The notes under the pieces are model-generated. The model was not told the DNA's origin. It saw only the letters and a program-made list of their open reading frames with translations, and made no database searches. The position numbers and the translations under genes were made by a program. Shown in pieces: positions 1-6,739 of a stretch of 21,943 bases of DNA (its first letter is position 1; each line of letters begins with the position of its first letter). Source of the DNA: a virus; IMG/VR virus record IMGVR_UViG_3300037847_004011, positions 1 to 21,943 of that record; one strand, 5' to 3'.

Positions 1-863
1 ATATAGGCAACAGCTCTGGTAACACTAGGATGACATTGCTTGCGGATGGTAAATTAGGAGTCAATACTACATCTCCACTTGGAACGGTACATATTTTCAC
101 AGCAGATGCTGGTGCAGCTATAGCTACAAATACAAGTCACGATGATCTAATAATAGAGAATGGTGGGAATTGTGGTATTCAATTATCTGGCCCTGCAAGC
201 AGTTATCAATACTTAGCTTTTGGTGATACAGCTTCAGCTAACCAAGGTTATGTAAGATATTATCATACAGATAATAGAATGGATCTACGTGCAGGAGGCA
301 CGGATACTTTAAGTCTTGTTGGAGGTAAAGTAGGAATAAGAACTACAAGCCCAACTGAGGTCTTAGACGTTGTCGGTTTAATTAAGTTTGGTAACACAAG
401 GTCTGATAACACTCAAAAGATAGCAAGGCTTCTTGTACCTGAATATAATAATTCGCATGGGTCTTTCCTTGCATTCATGGGTACAGCTAACCAAACTAGT
501 AATGCTGTTAGTTATGGGGGAGGTACTTCATCAGCAGACGCAGCTACACTTTTATTGTTCTACACTGCATCTGCCGTTAATACCACTGTTGGTACAGAAA
601 GAATGCGTATCACTTCTGATGGCAAGGTAGGTATTGGAACTCAATCTCCACAACAAGAGTTGGATGTCGATGGGGTTATTAAACAAAAGGTATATACAGT
701 CAGCAACCTACCATCAGCAAGTAGCTCAACTATAGGAGCTAGAGCGTTTGTAAGTGATTCATATTACCCATTTAGCTCTAGTTATCTAGGATCTCAGATT
801 TCAGGTGGGGGTAGTAATTTTAGTCCTGTTTACTCTGATGGTAGTTATTGGTATATGGGGTAA
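1..863 (+). CDS. Tail fibre / receptor-binding protein, C-terminal part (5' truncated)
   Basis: The reading frame is already open at position 3, so the gene starts before the window; the ATG at 30 lies inside the first visible repeat and is not the true start. Three copies of a fibre repeat ending in a DGK-(L/V)-G-(V/I)-x-T-x-SP type motif are seen (near positions 48-81, 324-354 and 618-651). The last two are followed by an 'E-(V/L)-D-V-x-G-x-I-K' segment, typical of trimeric phage tail fibres and tailspike-chaperone proteins. The last ~60 residues, with 'GARAFVSD' and 'GGGSNFSPVYSDG', look like the small C-terminal cap often found at the end of marine phage fibres. The protein is probably part of the virion adsorption apparatus; receptor unknown. 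The family assignment is from repeat pattern only. Confidence 0.85.
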   Translation, partial: IGNSSGNTRMTLLADGKLGVNTTSPLGTVHIFTADAGAAIATNTSHDDLIIENGGNCGIQLSGPASSYQYLAFGDTASANQGYVRYYHTDNRMDLRAGGTDTLSLVGGKVGIRTTSPTEVLDVVGLIKFGNTRSDNTQKIARLLVPEYNNSHGSFLAFMGTANQTSNAVSYGGGTSSADAATLLLFYTASAVNTTVGTERMRITSDGKVGIGTQSPQQELDVDGVIKQKVYTVSNLPSASSSTIGARAFVSDSYYPFSSSYLGSQISGGGSNFSPVYSDGSYWYMG

Positions 864-908: not shown

Positions 909-1112
909 ATGGAAGAAGTTACACTTAAACTTAATAAGGATCTAATCCAAGTAAACATCCAAGCTATCGACATTGCTGTTAAAGCTGTCGGCTTGAACGG
1001 TGCTGAAGCTCTAGTAGTTCTAGCCAAAACAATATCTGAGCAAACAGGCGAGACTGTTGCTCCTCCAGAGCAGCCCGAAGCTGAAGAGGCTCAAGTAGAA
1101 GTAGTTGAGTAA
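909..1112 (+). CDS. Small acidic hypothetical protein downstream of the tail fibre
   Basis: A 67-residue protein. Residues 1-45 are predicted mainly helical and amphipathic ('IQAIDIAVKAVGLNGAEALVV'); the last ~20 are Glu/Pro-rich and probably disordered. There is no signal peptide or membrane segment. No clear Shine-Dalgarno sequence precedes the ATG. The stop overlaps the next start by one base (TAATG), so the two are probably translationally coupled. Small proteins of this kind often follow fibre genes in marine phages, but no function is known to me. It could be a fibre accessory or chaperone; this is inference from position. Confidence 0.7.
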   Translation: MEEVTLKLNKDLIQVNIQAIDIAVKAVGLNGAEALVVLAKTISEQTGETVAPPEQPEAEEAQVEVVE

Positions 1113-1723
1113 TGCGTTTTTACGTAGAAATAGAAGATGAGAATCATCTTGCTGGCATCACAAAAGCCAGAGAAGCGTACAACGCCTCACTACCTTGGAT
1201 AGATAATCCTGATTATGTAGAGCCTTATCTCCTAAAGGAGATGGTTAATCCTGATTATGAGGAGCCTATAGGTGATCCACTTATAGAAAATCCTGATTAT
1301 GAACCAGCAACTGAAGAGTTTGGAGAACCTTTAATTCCCAACCCTGATTTCGTAAAGGGGTCAGAAGCAGTTGGGGAACCGCAGATTCCAAACCCTGATT
1401 ACGATGAAGAGGACGAAGAGTCTGAGGAGTTTATAGACAACCCTGACTACGTTCCAGCAGTCGAGGAACAAGGGCCAGCAGTTATTGACAACCCTGATTA
1501 TAGAGAAGCTAAAGAAGCTGTAGGGGAGCCACTGATTGAAAATCCTGACTATGTTCCTGCTGTTGGAGAGCCTACAATACCTAATCCAGACTACACAGAA
1601 GGTACTCCAGATCTTCCACAAACCATTCCACAGGAAGGCTTTACAGAAGATAAAGACTACATGAAGTGGGTGATCGAAAAGGCTGCTGAGTCCTATGCCA
1701 AGGAGTTTGGTATTATTGATTAA
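1112..1723 (+). CDS. NPDY-repeat protein (acidic, nine tandem repeats)
   Basis: This 203-residue, strongly acidic protein has three parts. Residues 1-29 form an N-terminal segment ('YVEIEDENHLAGITKAREAY'). Residues 30-161 hold nine repeats centred on NPDY (one is NPDF), with the Asn at residues 32, 46, 60, 77, 94, 110, 127, 144 and 158, a spacing of 14-17. Residues ~176-203 form a C-terminal segment ('YMKWVIEKAAESYAKEFG'). Between NPDY cores the linkers are rich in Glu, Pro, Ala and Gly ('VPAVGEPTIP'). The N- and C-terminal segments together resemble a short (~60-70 aa) phage protein from memory, into which the repeats appear inserted. It has no signal peptide or TM helix. Its start overlaps the preceding stop by one base. 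Function is unknown; a fibre- or host-interaction role is speculation from position. Confidence 0.75.
   Translation: MRFYVEIEDENHLAGITKAREAYNASLPWIDNPDYVEPYLLKEMVNPDYEEPIGDPLIENPDYEPATEEFGEPLIPNPDFVKGSEAVGEPQIPNPDYDEEDEESEEFIDNPDYVPAVEEQGPAVIDNPDYREAKEAVGEPLIENPDYVPAVGEPTIPNPDYTEGTPDLPQTIPQEGFTEDKDYMKWVIEKAAESYAKEFGIID
1199..1594 (+). repeat. Nine diverged coding repeats of the NPDY unit
   Basis: Units of 42-51 bp each carry an Asn-Pro-Asp-Tyr core. Core codons vary synonymously between copies (AAT/AAC, CCT/CCA, GAT/GAC, TAT/TAC), so the repeats are conserved at protein level while the DNA has drifted. They are not a recent slippage array. Confidence 0.85.
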
Positions 1724-1744
1724 TTGTGGTATATTGCTCGCTAC

Positions 1745-1918
1745 ATGAGCAATAGCGAAATATTAGCTAAAGGCGTTACAGGGGTTACAGGCTCTATCGT
1801 AGCGGTTACTATACCGTATGCGGAAGTTATTCAATGGGGCATCCAAGTTGTTGGAGGACTCTTAGGTATCACTGTAGCTATAATTACTTTATACAATTTA
1901 ATTAAGAAAAAGAAATGA
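1745..1918 (+). CDS. Small membrane protein, holin candidate
   Basis: A 57-residue protein with two hydrophobic stretches: roughly residues 10-24 ('VTGVTGSIVAVTIPY') and 28-50 ('VIQWGIQVVGGLLGITVAIITLY'), ending in a basic tail NLIKKKK. Small size, two candidate membrane segments, a charged C-terminus and position just before the spanins and endolysin all fit a class II-type holin, which would form the inner-membrane lesion that triggers lysis. A TTG at 1724 is in frame, but the ATG at 1745 gives the natural N-terminus. Its stop overlaps the next start (ATGA). Which of the two adjacent membrane proteins is the holin and which an antiholin cannot be told from sequence. Confidence 0.65.
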   Translation: MSNSEILAKGVTGVTGSIVAVTIPYAEVIQWGIQVVGGLLGITVAIITLYNLIKKKK

Positions 1919-2079
1919 ACAAAGAATCAATATTAGGTATTATCCGTCACATGTTAACTTTCGGTGGTGGTTTTATGACACAAAATGGTATGGCTACCGA
2001 CGATCAAGTAACCACTGCTGTATCTGCTGCGGTTACTTTAATTGGTGTTATTTGGTCAATACTGTCTAAAAAGAAGTGA
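1915..2079 (+). CDS. Small membrane protein, Pam3-gp28-like holin candidate
   Basis: A 54-residue protein that starts on the ATGA overlap at 1915. It has the pattern 'SILGIIRHMLTFGGGF' at the N-terminus, a short polar loop ('TDDQVTTAVSA'), one hydrophobic helix (about residues 36-50, 'SAAVTLIGVIWSIL') and a basic end SKKK. This layout (I-x-R-H-x-L-T-x-G-G-G-F, then a V-x-L-I-G-V-x-W-S helix) matches my recollection of the Pam3-gp28-type putative phage holins. It overlaps the i-spanin start by four bases (GTGA). It likely acts in the inner membrane as holin, antiholin or pinholin together with its upstream neighbour. Family name is by recall, not by search. Confidence 0.65.
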   Translation: MNKESILGIIRHMLTFGGGFMTQNGMATDDQVTTAVSAAVTLIGVIWSILSKKK

Positions 2080-2270: not shown

Positions 2271-2427
2271 TCCCCCCACAATTACCCTTATAAAAGGGTA
2301 TGATTACCCCTTTAAAGAAGGCAATCTCATGGGGCGTGGGCAGAAGTTTCACAGTGATTATTCCTACAGGCGTGCTATAATAGTAGGAGATGATAGCAAT
2401 ATGCGTGGGACACAGCCGACCAAATGA
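2158..2427 (+). CDS. Putative outer-membrane spanin lipoprotein (Rz1-like), nested start
   Basis: An 89-residue protein that begins inside the i-spanin gene in another frame and continues 157 bp past its stop. Residues 1-19 form a lipoprotein signal peptide: basic start (NWKIK), hydrophobic core (LISLLLMVVL), lipobox-like LPSC with the lipidated Cys at residue 20. The -2 Pro is unusual but tolerated. The mature part is ~70 residues with 'DPPTITLIKGYDYPFKEG' and 'KFHSDYSYRRAIIVG'. An outer-membrane spanin is a small lipoprotein that bridges the periplasm with the i-spanin and fuses the membranes in the last step of lysis, so the host should be Gram-negative. The gene's 3' end overlaps the endolysin start by 38 bp. 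Confidence 0.75.
   Translation: MNWKIKLISLLLMVVLLPSCKLRDLVGDSSLNESAIYDPPTITLIKGYDYPFKEGNLMGRGQKFHSDYSYRRAIIVGDDSNMRGTQPTK
2283..2312 (+). other. Alternative hairpin arms within the spanin gene
   Basis: Three arms occur in a row: TACCCTT (2283-2289), AAGGGTA (2294-2300) and TACCCCTT (2305-2312). The middle arm pairs perfectly with the first over a 4-nt loop, or with the third with one bulge. It lies just after the i-spanin stop. Because this is also coding sequence, the pairing may be chance. Confidence 0.3.
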
Positions 2428-2944
2428 TTCAGGAGCAGCTTCTGTAACTGGAGTCACTGAATGGGATTACAATTCGGAGCTTGCCGAGATGATTGGCAAG
2501 GAACTAAAACAACCGTATAAGATTTACCACACCTATAAAGGTGGGAGTTATGTCACTGCTATGCGGTGGTTGGCTAGGAAGCTAGATGAAGATCGTGTAG
2601 ATACAGCCGTTGAATTACACTTCAACGCAGCAACACCATCAGCGACAGGACATGAATGGTTACACTGGCATACGTCTGAAAAAGGAAGATTACTTGCACG
2701 TACACTAAGAGATTCTTTTGAAGACTCCTTCCCATTATTTAGGAGCAGGGGGATTAAACCACGTAAAAAAGGAAGTAGAGGAGCTTACTTTTTAAGGGCT
2801 ACCTCAATGCCAGCTTGTATCGCAGAACCCTTTTTTGGGACTAATAAAGAAGATTGGGATCTAGCTGTAAACCATAAACAAGGGATGGCTTCTGCTATAG
2901 CAGGGGGTATTACACTATATTCAGAGCTTGTGGAAAGGTGGTAA
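2390..2944 (+). CDS. N-acetylmuramoyl-L-alanine amidase endolysin (Amidase_3 type)
   Basis: A 184-residue enzyme that would cleave the MurNAc-L-Ala bond of peptidoglycan at lysis. Amidase_3 features are visible in order: 'CVGHSRPNDSGA' (zinc His8), Glu near 'TEWDYNSELA' (second ligand), 'ELHFNAA' (third ligand His) and 'CIAEPFFG' near residues 143-150 (catalytic Glu). There is no signal peptide, so export needs the holin upstream. The length matches single-domain amidase endolysins. The ATG at 2390 is the first possible start after an in-frame stop at 2384; an AGGAG lies directly against it with no spacer, so initiation may be coupled to the overlapping spanin gene. Confidence 0.85.
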   Translation: MIAICVGHSRPNDSGAASVTGVTEWDYNSELAEMIGKELKQPYKIYHTYKGGSYVTAMRWLARKLDEDRVDTAVELHFNAATPSATGHEWLHWHTSEKGRLLARTLRDSFEDSFPLFRSRGIKPRKKGSRGAYFLRATSMPACIAEPFFGTNKEDWDLAVNHKQGMASAIAGGITLYSELVERW

Positions 2945-3780: not shown

Positions 3781-4297
3781 AAAAGGTTTTACGGTTGAGG
3801 GTGACTTTGTTGTCTATAAACCTTCGAGCGAAGACTTAGTCCTTGCTCATAAACGCTCTTGTAAATTGGGAGTGTTGCCTAACTCATTTACTCAGGGTTT
3901 AGGGCGCATGGCAGGATACTTAGGAGAGATAGCAGTACAAAACTATTTGAAGAGGAGCAAGTATGTAGGTGACTCTGTGTACACACATGATATTGAGTAC
4001 AAGAAAAGAAAGATAGAAGTTAAATCAAAATCTTGTGCTACTCCTCCAAAGTCTCATTACTCTGCTTCTGTTAATTGCAAGAAGCAGTTCATGCCAGACA
4101 ACGATGTTTATTTTTTCACTAGAGTACGTAAGGACTTTATGATTGTTTGGATTGTAGGTTGGTTACCTACTACAAAACTATTGAAGGAAGCTGAGTATAA
4201 AAACAGAGGTGATAAAGATACTGATGGTTTTGTGTACAAAACCTCTGGGCTACATATTGATATAGGCGATCTAAAGTCACCTACGTTGTTTCAATAA
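3767..4297 (+). CDS. Putative PD-(D/E)XK-fold endonuclease
   Basis: A 176-residue protein from the ATG at 3767; an in-frame TTG at 3743 would add 8 residues deeper inside the lysozyme gene. Nuclease-like residues are in the expected order: 'GYLGEIAVQNYL' (Glu on helix 1), 'HDIEYKKRKIEVKSKS' (Asp, then E-V-K as the E-x-K catalytic pair), then a Lys/Gln-bearing strand-helix part and a hydrophobic beta segment ('DFMIVWIVGWLP'). This is the order of a small PD-(D/E)XK restriction-like fold. It could degrade host DNA or process phage DNA. It is the last gene of the rightward unit and its stop overlaps that of the convergent leftward operon by 7 bp. Substrate is unknown. Confidence 0.6.
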   Translation: MRKNKKGFTVEGDFVVYKPSSEDLVLAHKRSCKLGVLPNSFTQGLGRMAGYLGEIAVQNYLKRSKYVGDSVYTHDIEYKKRKIEVKSKSCATPPKSHYSASVNCKKQFMPDNDVYFFTRVRKDFMIVWIVGWLPTTKLLKEAEYKNRGDKDTDGFVYKTSGLHIDIGDLKSPTLFQ

Positions 4298-4557
4298 GTT
4301 TCTTCAGGTGTAGATATAAAGATAGGATACCCTTCCCCTCTTGTACCTGCTACATTTATCCAAAAGTAATCTTCAGCTTCGTCGGGTTTCATTTCTTTGG
4401 ACAGTATTTCGATACATTTTTCTATAGAGTATACAGCTCTCGTAGGGTCTTCATCTAGTGCAACCCCAATAAAAGCGTCATCAAGACCATCAGGAACTAT
4501 AACAGATTCACTCGGCACTACCGTCTCACAGAATTCGTTTATTTCATCTCTAGTCAT
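4291..4557 (-). CDS. Small conserved phage protein, paralogue A of a pair
   Basis: An 88-residue acidic protein. The ATG at 4557 is chosen; a GTG at 4566 is also in frame. Core residues 'DGLDDAFIGVALDEDPTRAVYSIEKCIEIL' followed by 'EAEDYFWINVAGTRGEGYPIFI' match a widespread, unnamed phage protein family: 'G-(L/F)-(D/E)-D-A-(F/Y)-I-G', an 'A-V-Y-S' strand, a helix with I-x-I-L, then an 'A-x-x-Y-F' helix and a Gly-Pro-Phe ending. The gene at 12682-12954 is a second copy. No function is known for the family as far as I recall. It is the last gene of the leftward operon, overlaps the primase-helicase by 8 bp, and converges on the nuclease gene. Confidence 0.7.
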   Translation of the reverse strand: MTRDEINEFCETVVPSESVIVPDGLDDAFIGVALDEDPTRAVYSIEKCIEILSKEMKPDEAEDYFWINVAGTRGEGYPIFISTPEETY

Positions 4558-6739
4558 CAAGACCACTTATATCCCATTTCGGATCTAAATCAATGGAATA
4601 AATCTTGTTGTGTTTCTTGTACTGAGAAGTAACGGGTCTAATTGTAGGGTCTGCTTTACAAGCTTCTTCTAATGACTGCATACTGCGACGCATGAACTCT
4701 GTGTTTACCACTAGGTTATTCAATGGTTTACCACCATTCAATTCTGTTACAAGTTGCATAAAGTCTGTAGCAAATCCCCTCCATACAGTTCTTTTATCAT
4801 CATAGTCTCTAAACTTCCGTACAAAAAATTCTACTGTTTCTATTAAGATAGACCTTGTTGAATTTGCAAAGGCAACTTCTTCTATCTCAGGATCAATGAA
4901 AGATTTAATACCAAACCTTGAATCACCTTTTATGTGTTTAGGAACTTTAAATTCGTGCAGTAACCATTGAGCAAAGTATGGAAGCTCGTCAGCTATCCTT
5001 GATTCTATAATAGTATTACTTGCTTCTTCGACTCCTAATAGTTTGGCAAAGTTACTTTCCGCTTTATCAGAAATACGTAGAGCTAATATTTTATCTCTGT
5101 TACTAGAATCTAAAGCAGGAATAACTGATAAACTAGTAGGGTCCATATTCAAAGACATGATTACTCGACCTGCCCAACTGATAGTTATAGTGTCTTCAAA
5201 CTTTGCTTGGTATTCAATTCTTGGGTTAGCGGTTGCTTTTTTAATCAGCTCAGTGGCTCTACGTTGTTCCGCAAAAGAAGCAGCCGAAGTTGTATCGTCT
5301 ATAACCCAAGCAGCTACTCTACCTAATTCTTTGTTGAACTTACTATCACCACTAAGATAATCCGAAGCGTCGGCAAATCCACCGAGCAACCCACCAATCA
5401 ATTTGTTAGATAGCAAAGACTTACCTTTGTTTGTTGGCCCTACCAATATAAGTGCGTGTCCTTGTTTAGACTCTTTTTCGTACAGAGCGGAATAGATTCT
5501 TTGTAACCACCCATAAAAATAGTCTAGCGATTCCTTATCTTTAAAGAATTGGGTGAGCCATGTATCTATAAACTTCCATTTATTTCTGTCAGCGTCCCCC
5601 GCAGGTTGTACTGGTTTAAGTGTACTGGTGTTTAAAATCTTATTTGGCCCTGACTCTACTATCCTTCTTTTATCAAATATGATAGGGGCTACTTCATCTA
5701 TCCTACTGTTTTGTTGTATTATTAAGATAGCGTTTTCTACTTCAGTTAGCGGTTGCCCATTTCTTGTTGTCCTAAAACCTGCTTGGCGTAGTTCTAGTTT
5801 AAGTTGATCCTTATCTAAGGTGCATGCTTTTCCGTTGATGAAAGTATAGAAAGCTTTACCTGTAAACCAATATTTATCTACTAGATGGTCTAGTTTTGCA
5901 TTCTCATATTCATCTACAAAAGCTTGCCCAAATATTTCTTTCCAAGTTAAGAACCCTTTACCTGCTCTATCTGAGTAACATACCATACCATCTAGAGTCA
6001 CCTGACAACCGTCTCTTTCTATACCATCATCTATCCAGAACAATGGCCCCCTATCCCCTACATTAAATCCTGAAGTCCACCTACCTTTGTATTTCTCGTC
6101 CTCACGTACTTTTTTTTCAATAACCTCTAGTGGGATACTTAAAGCAGTCGGAGCTTGTGGTGGGTGTTTGATACTAGTTTTTATTAATAGCTTTTTATAA
6201 AAGTCTTTCTTTAGTCTTTTTTCAGTAACATGAATAACCTCACCTAGAAACCAATATTTAGCTGCATCCAAACAAGACTCATCGAAACCTGCAAACATAC
6301 GCCTGACTCTTAACTTGTCGGCAAGTGCTTTGACAAAAGCGTTAAACATTCTGTAGTCTATCAGCAGCTTTCCTTCAAACTCCCATATAAGTCTGATACC
6401 ACCAGAAGGAGTTCTAGTTATAACAGTTGGTGGGAAGGGTCCACATTTAGAAAGTACTTCTTCTACTACCTTATCCCAATCAGGGTCAATGTTATCATAC
6501 TCAACAACGAAGCCATACATTGCTTCTACTTTGTTACCACCCCTTTTTGATATTCTTGTAGAGGCTATCGTACCTTCATTCAAAGAGTAGAATACATAGT
6601 CCGTGTCTGGGTGGTTCATCCACGCCCTACGTTTTTCTTTATCTGTAAACTTCTTCGGGGTTTTATTAAATGTTGTAAGTGTCTCGCAAGTGTTAGTATG
6701 GTGGTCTGATAGGTTTTTTAAGTATCTATAATGGTGCAT
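4550..6739 (-). CDS. Primase-helicase: PrimPol-like N-terminus plus SF3 helicase
   Basis: 729 residues from the ATG at 6739. An upstream in-frame ATG at 6778 would overlap the polymerase by 38 bp and has no Shine-Dalgarno sequence, so 6739, one base past the polymerase stop, is preferred. Residue numbers below count from 6778. Region 80-190 looks like an archaeo-eukaryotic primase: 'GFVVEYD' (90-96, hhxEhD), 'RTPSGGIRLIWEF' (122-134), 'YWFLGEVIHV' (175-184). The C-terminal half is an SF3/D5-like ATPase: Walker A GPTNKGKS (447-454), Walker B 'AAWVIDDT' (489-496) and motif C-like 'VIMSLNMDP' (539-547). It would unwind and prime phage DNA for the adjacent polymerase. The primase domain is inferred from weak motifs; the helicase is clear. 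Confidence 0.85.
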   Translation of the reverse strand: MHHYRYLKNLSDHHTNTCETLTTFNKTPKKFTDKEKRRAWMNHPDTDYVFYSLNEGTIASTRISKRGGNKVEAMYGFVVEYDNIDPDWDKVVEEVLSKCGPFPPTVITRTPSGGIRLIWEFEGKLLIDYRMFNAFVKALADKLRVRRMFAGFDESCLDAAKYWFLGEVIHVTEKRLKKDFYKKLLIKTSIKHPPQAPTALSIPLEVIEKKVREDEKYKGRWTSGFNVGDRGPLFWIDDGIERDGCQVTLDGMVCYSDRAGKGFLTWKEIFGQAFVDEYENAKLDHLVDKYWFTGKAFYTFINGKACTLDKDQLKLELRQAGFRTTRNGQPLTEVENAILIIQQNSRIDEVAPIIFDKRRIVESGPNKILNTSTLKPVQPAGDADRNKWKFIDTWLTQFFKDKESLDYFYGWLQRIYSALYEKESKQGHALILVGPTNKGKSLLSNKLIGGLLGGFADASDYLSGDSKFNKELGRVAAWVIDDTTSAASFAEQRRATELIKKATANPRIEYQAKFEDTITISWAGRVIMSLNMDPTSLSVIPALDSSNRDKILALRISDKAESNFAKLLGVEEASNTIIESRIADELPYFAQWLLHEFKVPKHIKGDSRFGIKSFIDPEIEEVAFANSTRSILIETVEFFVRKFRDYDDKRTVWRGFATDFMQLVTELNGGKPLNNLVVNTEFMRRSMQSLEEACKADPTIRPVTSQYKKHNKIYSIDLDPKWDISGLDD

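Follow-up and report, generated by a model that had tools for sequence, protein, structure and literature searches.

An NPDY-repeat protein of the phage tail-fibre module: a two-helix family with a variable arm and a possible role as fibre chaperone or cap

Pam3 gp25, A5 gp9 and V22 gp27 are chaperones encoded beside the fibre gene (PMC10579305, PMC9608196). Pam3 gp25 forms a 3:3 complex in which a helical trimer places three tentacles on the fibre, and it was not detected in virions (PMC9608196). A5 gp9 and V22 gp27 have a helical body with a hairpin tentacle that is lengthened by insertion, and their hairpins measure about 88 and 16 Å, respectively (PMC10579305). The context of these chaperones is also present in the marine phage DNA studied here, a window of 21,943 nucleotides (IMG/VR record IMGVR_UViG_3300037847_004011). 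In this window, the gene of a protein with nine NPDY repeats lies beside a tail-fibre gene and is exchanged together with it, and one gene of 67 aa intervenes. Our searches of the open-access literature turned up no account of phage NPDY repeats.

The NPDY-repeat gene and its two-helix family

The NPDY-repeat protein (203 aa) is encoded on the plus strand by an ORF with an ATG start at positions 1112..1723, and this start overlaps the last base of the upstream 67-aa gene (909-1112). Nine NPDY/NPDF cores spaced by 14–17 residues had been described in the initial annotation, and this description is accurate. The first residues of the cores are 32, 46, 60, 77, 94, 110, 127, 144 and 158, which gives spacings of 14, 14, 17, 17, 16, 17, 17 and 14. 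In any of 20,000 shuffles of the protein, the maximum was two NPD[YF] cores, versus nine in the real sequence. The protein is strongly acidic, with a net charge of -43, a pI of 4.05 and an Asp and Glu content of 27%. Its N-terminal part (residues 1-28; 1112..1195, plus strand) is predicted to have a short strand-like start followed by a helix at residues 10-26 and carries the GITKAREAYNASLP motif. The C-terminal part (residues 173-203; 1628..1720, plus strand) contains a predicted helix at 180-198 with DKDYMKWVIEKAAESYAKEF. The array of nine cores, with ten predicted short strands, occupies residues 29-172 (1196..1627, plus strand) and is thus located between the two helices of the body. Its central unit (residues 94-106, NPDYDEEDEESEE; 1391..1429, plus strand) is acidic.

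The two ends of the NPDY protein are one small phage protein, as the initial annotation had supposed. A search of the sequence collection with an alignment of the ends returned only known loci, and hand-made degenerate patterns reached the distant family. Two degenerate DNA patterns, one for G-[IV]-x-x-A-x-x-x-Y-N-A-x-L-P and the other for the C-terminal motif, uncovered relatives without repeats. To avoid circularity, C-halves were taken from the members found with the N-terminal pattern, and N-halves from the members found with the C-terminal pattern. The resulting profiles matched the window at E=5e-7 for the C-end and E=8e-16 for the N-end; among 5000 shuffles, no E-value was better than 0.7 and 0.05, respectively. 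The repeat-less homologues that the annotation had proposed to look for are 58-70 aa long, for example MTTFTIEITDESKLAGITAARNKYNENLPLTITDEEGDEIPNPAILETDEDYVQFVMDKASESYANQYGT in L113. The family signature, a GITxAREAYNxxLP segment and a DxxYxxxVxxxAxxSYAxQ segment, is present in the NPDY protein, and G15, N24, Y183, V187, S194 and Y195 are invariant across the 27 family members.

It turned out that a second set of relatives (L127, L083, L107, L094 and others) carries both segments in swapped order. Both halves of these permuted members fit the unpermuted profile, and in L127 and L083 each half scores about 30 bits; the source of L127 is a Betaproteobacteria MAG. AF2 predicted a helical hairpin for the permuted form (helices 21-41 and 45-59, pLDDT 76), and this model had no significant match among viral folds. 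The circularly permuted two-helix bodies (L127, L068, L083, L091, L107, L094, L069 and others) lie mostly just 3' of long fibre-like genes. Pfam, PHROGs, NCBIfam and INPHARED contain nothing that matches the body, and tblastn searches of INPHARED with the joined ends and with the repeat-less, permuted and consensus forms gave no convincing matches. A match to an engineered CTPR protein (E 0.19) was discarded as chance-level. The protein represents a family of phage proteins encoded on the fibre side, and none of the libraries that we searched includes its body.

Comparison of relatives showed that the repeat number is not fixed: the family has members with 0-1, 4, 7, 8 and 9 units. Neither outcome that the initial annotation had named as a refutation, a constant number of repeats or ends unrelated to any shorter protein, was observed. 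Nine units are found in proteins of the window type. In L013/L014 there are seven, where the acidic unit is retained and one 17-residue unit is absent on either side of it. L118, a 70.7-kb contig with different downstream genes, has eight units, one of them degenerate. L050 (300-590), from the same phage group as the window, has four degenerate units, and the short members carry a single PNP-containing turn or lack one. All long-armed members are metagenomic and represent few lineages. Scanning viral contigs for NPDY-x10-NPDY returned 17 contigs, and 16 of them are in the two-helix family. L131 was rejected as an array member: its only two copies of NPDY belong to a short repeat that is unrelated. 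A natural length series and a natural circular permutation are thus found in one family.

We also assessed selection on the repeats. When the core copies are compared with one another, third codon positions differ in 46% of comparisons, and first and second positions in 2.8%. Low divergence at the first two positions together with high divergence at the third indicates selection on the peptide and not recent DNA slippage. This bears out what the initial annotation had read from synonymous drift. The window and eleven marine-type IMG/VR contigs gave a gap-free alignment of 12 orthologues of identical length. In this set, dN/dS is 0.013 for the cores, 0.114 for the ends and 0.203 for the spacers, and 32 of the 36 core positions are invariant. 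The NPDY cores are the most constrained part of the protein.

Gene neighbourhood and co-variation with the tail fibre

The fibre gene, the 67-aa gene, the small membrane protein gene, the holin and the endolysin are all on the plus strand, like the repeat gene. Upstream, positions 3..863 encode the C-terminal part of a tail fibre (PHROGs tail fiber, 1.7e-16), the 5' end of which is outside the window. The 67-aa gene at 909..1112 encodes a helical acidic protein and is a possible partner, for which the indication is weak; it has no match in PHROGs, Pfam or NCBIfam. Several loci carry such a second small helical gene next to the family gene (window 909-1112; L112, L116, L107, L079), and its similarity across phages is weak (E 0.0016). 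Downstream, the lysis region starts with a small membrane protein (1724..1918), followed by a holin of the Pam3 gp28 family (1915..2079; PF23987, 5e-17) and an amidase-type endolysin (2390..2944). Positions 2158-2427 encode a small protein with a lipobox-like LLPSC start. It overlaps the 2076-2270 frame and the start of the endolysin, and looks like a spanin-type overlapping gene.

Using the endolysin as an anchor, we located 35 loci of related phages. In these loci, different small acidic genes occupy the slot between fibre and lysis genes, and which of them is present tracks the fibre tip. Every fibre whose tip is GARAFVSDS...DGSYWYIG-like (11 of 11, the variants being GVRAF in L059 and GCRAF in L001) has the nine-unit gene downstream, as against 0 of 15 fibres with other tips. 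The seven-unit gene adjoins a different fibre tip. In L033, L037, L039, L040, L045, L047, L053 and L054, which have other tips, the slot between fibre and holin is occupied by small acidic genes (MPDLDLSEEDFK..., MAYLIFESKEEA..., MKDILLKF...). These alternative genes are candidate fibre helpers.

To quantify the co-variation, we used Mantel tests on 10 related contigs. Identity of the NPDY protein correlates with that of the fibre C-terminus (r 0.58, p 0.007). The same test gave r -0.03 for the adjacent holin and r 0.15 (p 0.18) for the endolysin. The holin and the fibre tip are equally near the NPDY gene on the DNA, yet only the fibre tip co-varies with it. Between the window and L032, the holins and the endolysin are identical, whereas the NPDY protein has 76% identity and the fibre tip 57%. 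Thus, the NPDY gene belongs to the tail-fibre module by position and by co-variation, which agrees with its earlier placement next to a tail fibre. The repeat-less members also lie mostly just 3' of long genes, but of the 10 loci tested, only 3 had an upstream gene that PHROGs assigned to the tail, which speaks against a general link with the fibre. The fibre C-termini of close relatives (window 3-863 and relatives) diverge strongly inside a conserved GARAFVSDS...VPVYSDGSYWYIG frame, which suggests receptor-driven change at the tip.

Predicted structure of the arm and possible functions

The monomer was modelled with AF2 from a 27-row alignment. Two of the five models are confident: the mean pLDDT is 90.9 for the best model and 88.4 for the second, and about 60 for the other three. 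The predicted helices at 10-26 and 180-198 enclose strands at residues 29, 43, 57, 74, 91, 107, 124, 141, 155 and 171, so that five strands lie on each side of the strand-free acidic stretch 94-106. This fits an extended antiparallel hairpin arm on a helix pair, with residues 94-106 as the proposed tip and with the pairing of the strands inferred. Three considerations favour the hairpin. The repeat-less body requires both helices to be close together. The arms look balanced about the acidic stretch at every observed length, with 5|5 strands in the window, 2|2 in L050 and roughly 4|4 in L118. Finally, the IxNPxY rung and the periods of 17 and 14 residues recur in the calreticulin P-domain, which is known to be a hairpin. 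The symmetry of the spacings is by itself modest evidence, since 84 of 1260 arrangements are equal or better (about 7% by chance). The DSSP string alone would be compatible with a beta-solenoid arm as well; a hairpin is preferred in view of the P-domain matches and of the short relatives, in which the helices are necessarily close. Among PDB folds, the model matched P-domain proteins only, and these matches are statistically weak (Foldseek, 7qpd_C, E 0.095; VIA, calnexin 1jhn, Z 2.2). The VIA match to 1jhn spans model residues 67-133 and is centred on the proposed tip. A match of the arm profile to GH114 (9ep5, E 5e-4) was set aside, by judgement, as acidic low-complexity.

Taken with the gene context, this anatomy suggests that the NPDY protein is an accessory of the tail-fibre module. 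Its likeliest function, at about even odds, is that of a fibre chaperone or a cap whose tentacle can be extended. The two end helices would pair to form the protein body, and the array in the loop between them would fold back into a long antiparallel hairpin arm, in which each IxNPDY may serve as one rung and the acidic unit as the tip. The protein might then help the adjacent fibre to fold or trimerise, or might transiently cap the fibre tip, with the arm lying along the fibre as a tentacle, as in known fibre chaperones. An oligomeric form, like the chaperone or cap action itself, is proposed by this analogy. The monomer model is consistent with a helical body and a tentacle, although its pTM is low (0.43). 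Should the arm be a chaperone tentacle, the natural length series would offer a direct way to examine how the length of the tentacle goes with the type of fibre.

The claim is that the protein works like these chaperones, not that it belongs to their families, and we give it the same even weight. As in A5 gp9 and V22 gp27, the gene lies beside the fibre gene and is swapped with the fibre module, and a helical body would be combined with a hairpin tentacle of variable length (PMC10579305). However, there is no detectable sequence similarity (hhalign probability 0.1%, E 0.45 to A5 gp9), the whole chaperones have 195-240 aa against about 60 aa in the NPDY body, and the arm motif differs. Pam3 gp25 (7YPX) and Mu Tfa are also encoded on the fibre side and have a helical trimerising part and a fibre-gripping part; in addition, the window resembles Pam3 in having the gp28-family holin close downstream. 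In contrast to them, the NPDY protein has neither a Pfam Tfa match nor a predicted N-terminal beta-sandwich, and its arm is inserted between the helices. A5 and V22 are Alteromonas phages, and A5 gp9 carries DUF4376. In searches that included the Pfam scan of 27 members and hhalign, the sequence matched neither Tfa nor DUF4376, nor did it match intramolecular chaperone domains. The tentacle region of A5 gp9 (L132, 9451-10167) consists of short repeats around a GEDAEGND turn, which resembles the VDAEGNE turn of L121.

The main rival is that the protein resides in the virion as a part of the fibre tip, that is, a small adhesin, spacer or adapter whose arm sets reach or binds a cell-surface partner. 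Its gene position and its co-variation with the fibre tip would fit this role equally, and so would cores strongly conserved among more variable spacers. Nevertheless, we consider it rather unlikely for a separate small protein that is so acidic and has no recognisable fibre-attachment or adhesin domain; moreover, comparable fibre-gene neighbours, Pam3 gp25 among them, do not occur in virions (PMC9608196). The initial annotation had left its suggestion of a binding or spacer module open. What the anatomy suggests is narrower, a hairpin arm of a fibre chaperone or cap. It is improbable that the protein acts as an acidic, flexible decoy (a DNA mimic or a counter-defence protein, for instance) and lies beside the fibre gene by chance. 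The low pI and the high Asp and Glu content would suit such a decoy, but it is the NPDY cores that are conserved and not the charge pattern, AF2 predicts ordered periodic strands, and the gene travels with the fibre tip.

Comparison with the calreticulin P-domain

The calreticulin/calnexin P-domain (PF00262; 1hhn, 1jhn) shares with the arm IxNPxY rungs with an Ile in each, periods of 14 and 17 residues and an acidic centre. The likeness in period and motif is based on an alignment with 1hhn and on the motif description in PMC7687155. The NPDY protein scores 41.4 bits against PF00262, the gathering cutoff being 25, and in the Pfam scan the calreticulin family was found in 13 of the 27 members; otherwise, only GH19 was found. 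We then scored shuffled sequences. Full shuffles gave nothing, shuffles with NPDY kept gave 15.9 bits or nothing, and one with Ile and NPDY kept gave 26.8. Since the latter passes the cutoff, the score is not diagnostic, and the match is carried by motif and period. Homology of the arm to calreticulin is not established.

It would be possible to conclude from this score, from the periods, the IxNPxY rungs and the weak fold matches that the arm truly belongs to the P-domain family and was taken over from a eukaryote. This is very improbable. Using the definitions of the type I and type II motifs in PMC7687155, we found 0 matches to IxDPxxxKP(E/D)DWD and 0 to GxWxxxxIxNP, only IxNP being shared. 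The Trp/Lys cores of the modules and the lectin domain are also missing, and the body is unrelated. Much of the score comes from the motif, and a PDB search with the arm profile reaches calreticulin no better than at E 0.68. The repeat-less members rather suggest that the arm goes back to one short turn within phages. A further-reaching interpretation has a P-domain-like hairpin that evolved independently in phages, changes its length by pairs of rungs, sits on a helix pair that also occurs circularly permuted, and serves as an adjustable tentacle of a fibre chaperone; this full reading has slightly less than even odds and is somewhat less probable than the chaperone or cap role alone. If the arm is P-domain-like, one hairpin chemistry would be used in a phage assembly factor and in a eukaryotic chaperone. 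Mimicry of eukaryotic NPxY sorting signals, raised by the initial annotation as a perhaps coincidental fit to adaptor proteins, can practically be dismissed: IxNPDY formally matches hydrophobic-x-NPxY, but the gene is a late gene of a bacteriophage and has fibre and lysis genes as neighbours, nothing ties the phage to eukaryotic cells, and a structural explanation is at hand in NPxY as a turn, IxNPxY also being the rung motif of the P-domain hairpin.

NPDY repeats also occur in surface proteins of Microbacterium phages (L016), which have a NPDYVPAVGEPTI-like unit in common with the NPDY protein and a fold match to its model. They differ in having, by eye, a signal peptide and a LAQTG-type anchor, and in the absence of the two-helix body. 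This is probably an independent use of the NPDY unit. In L016, positions 3863-5368 encode an apparent signal peptide, NPDYVPAVGEPTI-like repeats and a C-terminal LAQTG-TM-RRSRRS tail that resembles a sortase anchor, and the product is possibly displayed on the Gram-positive host.
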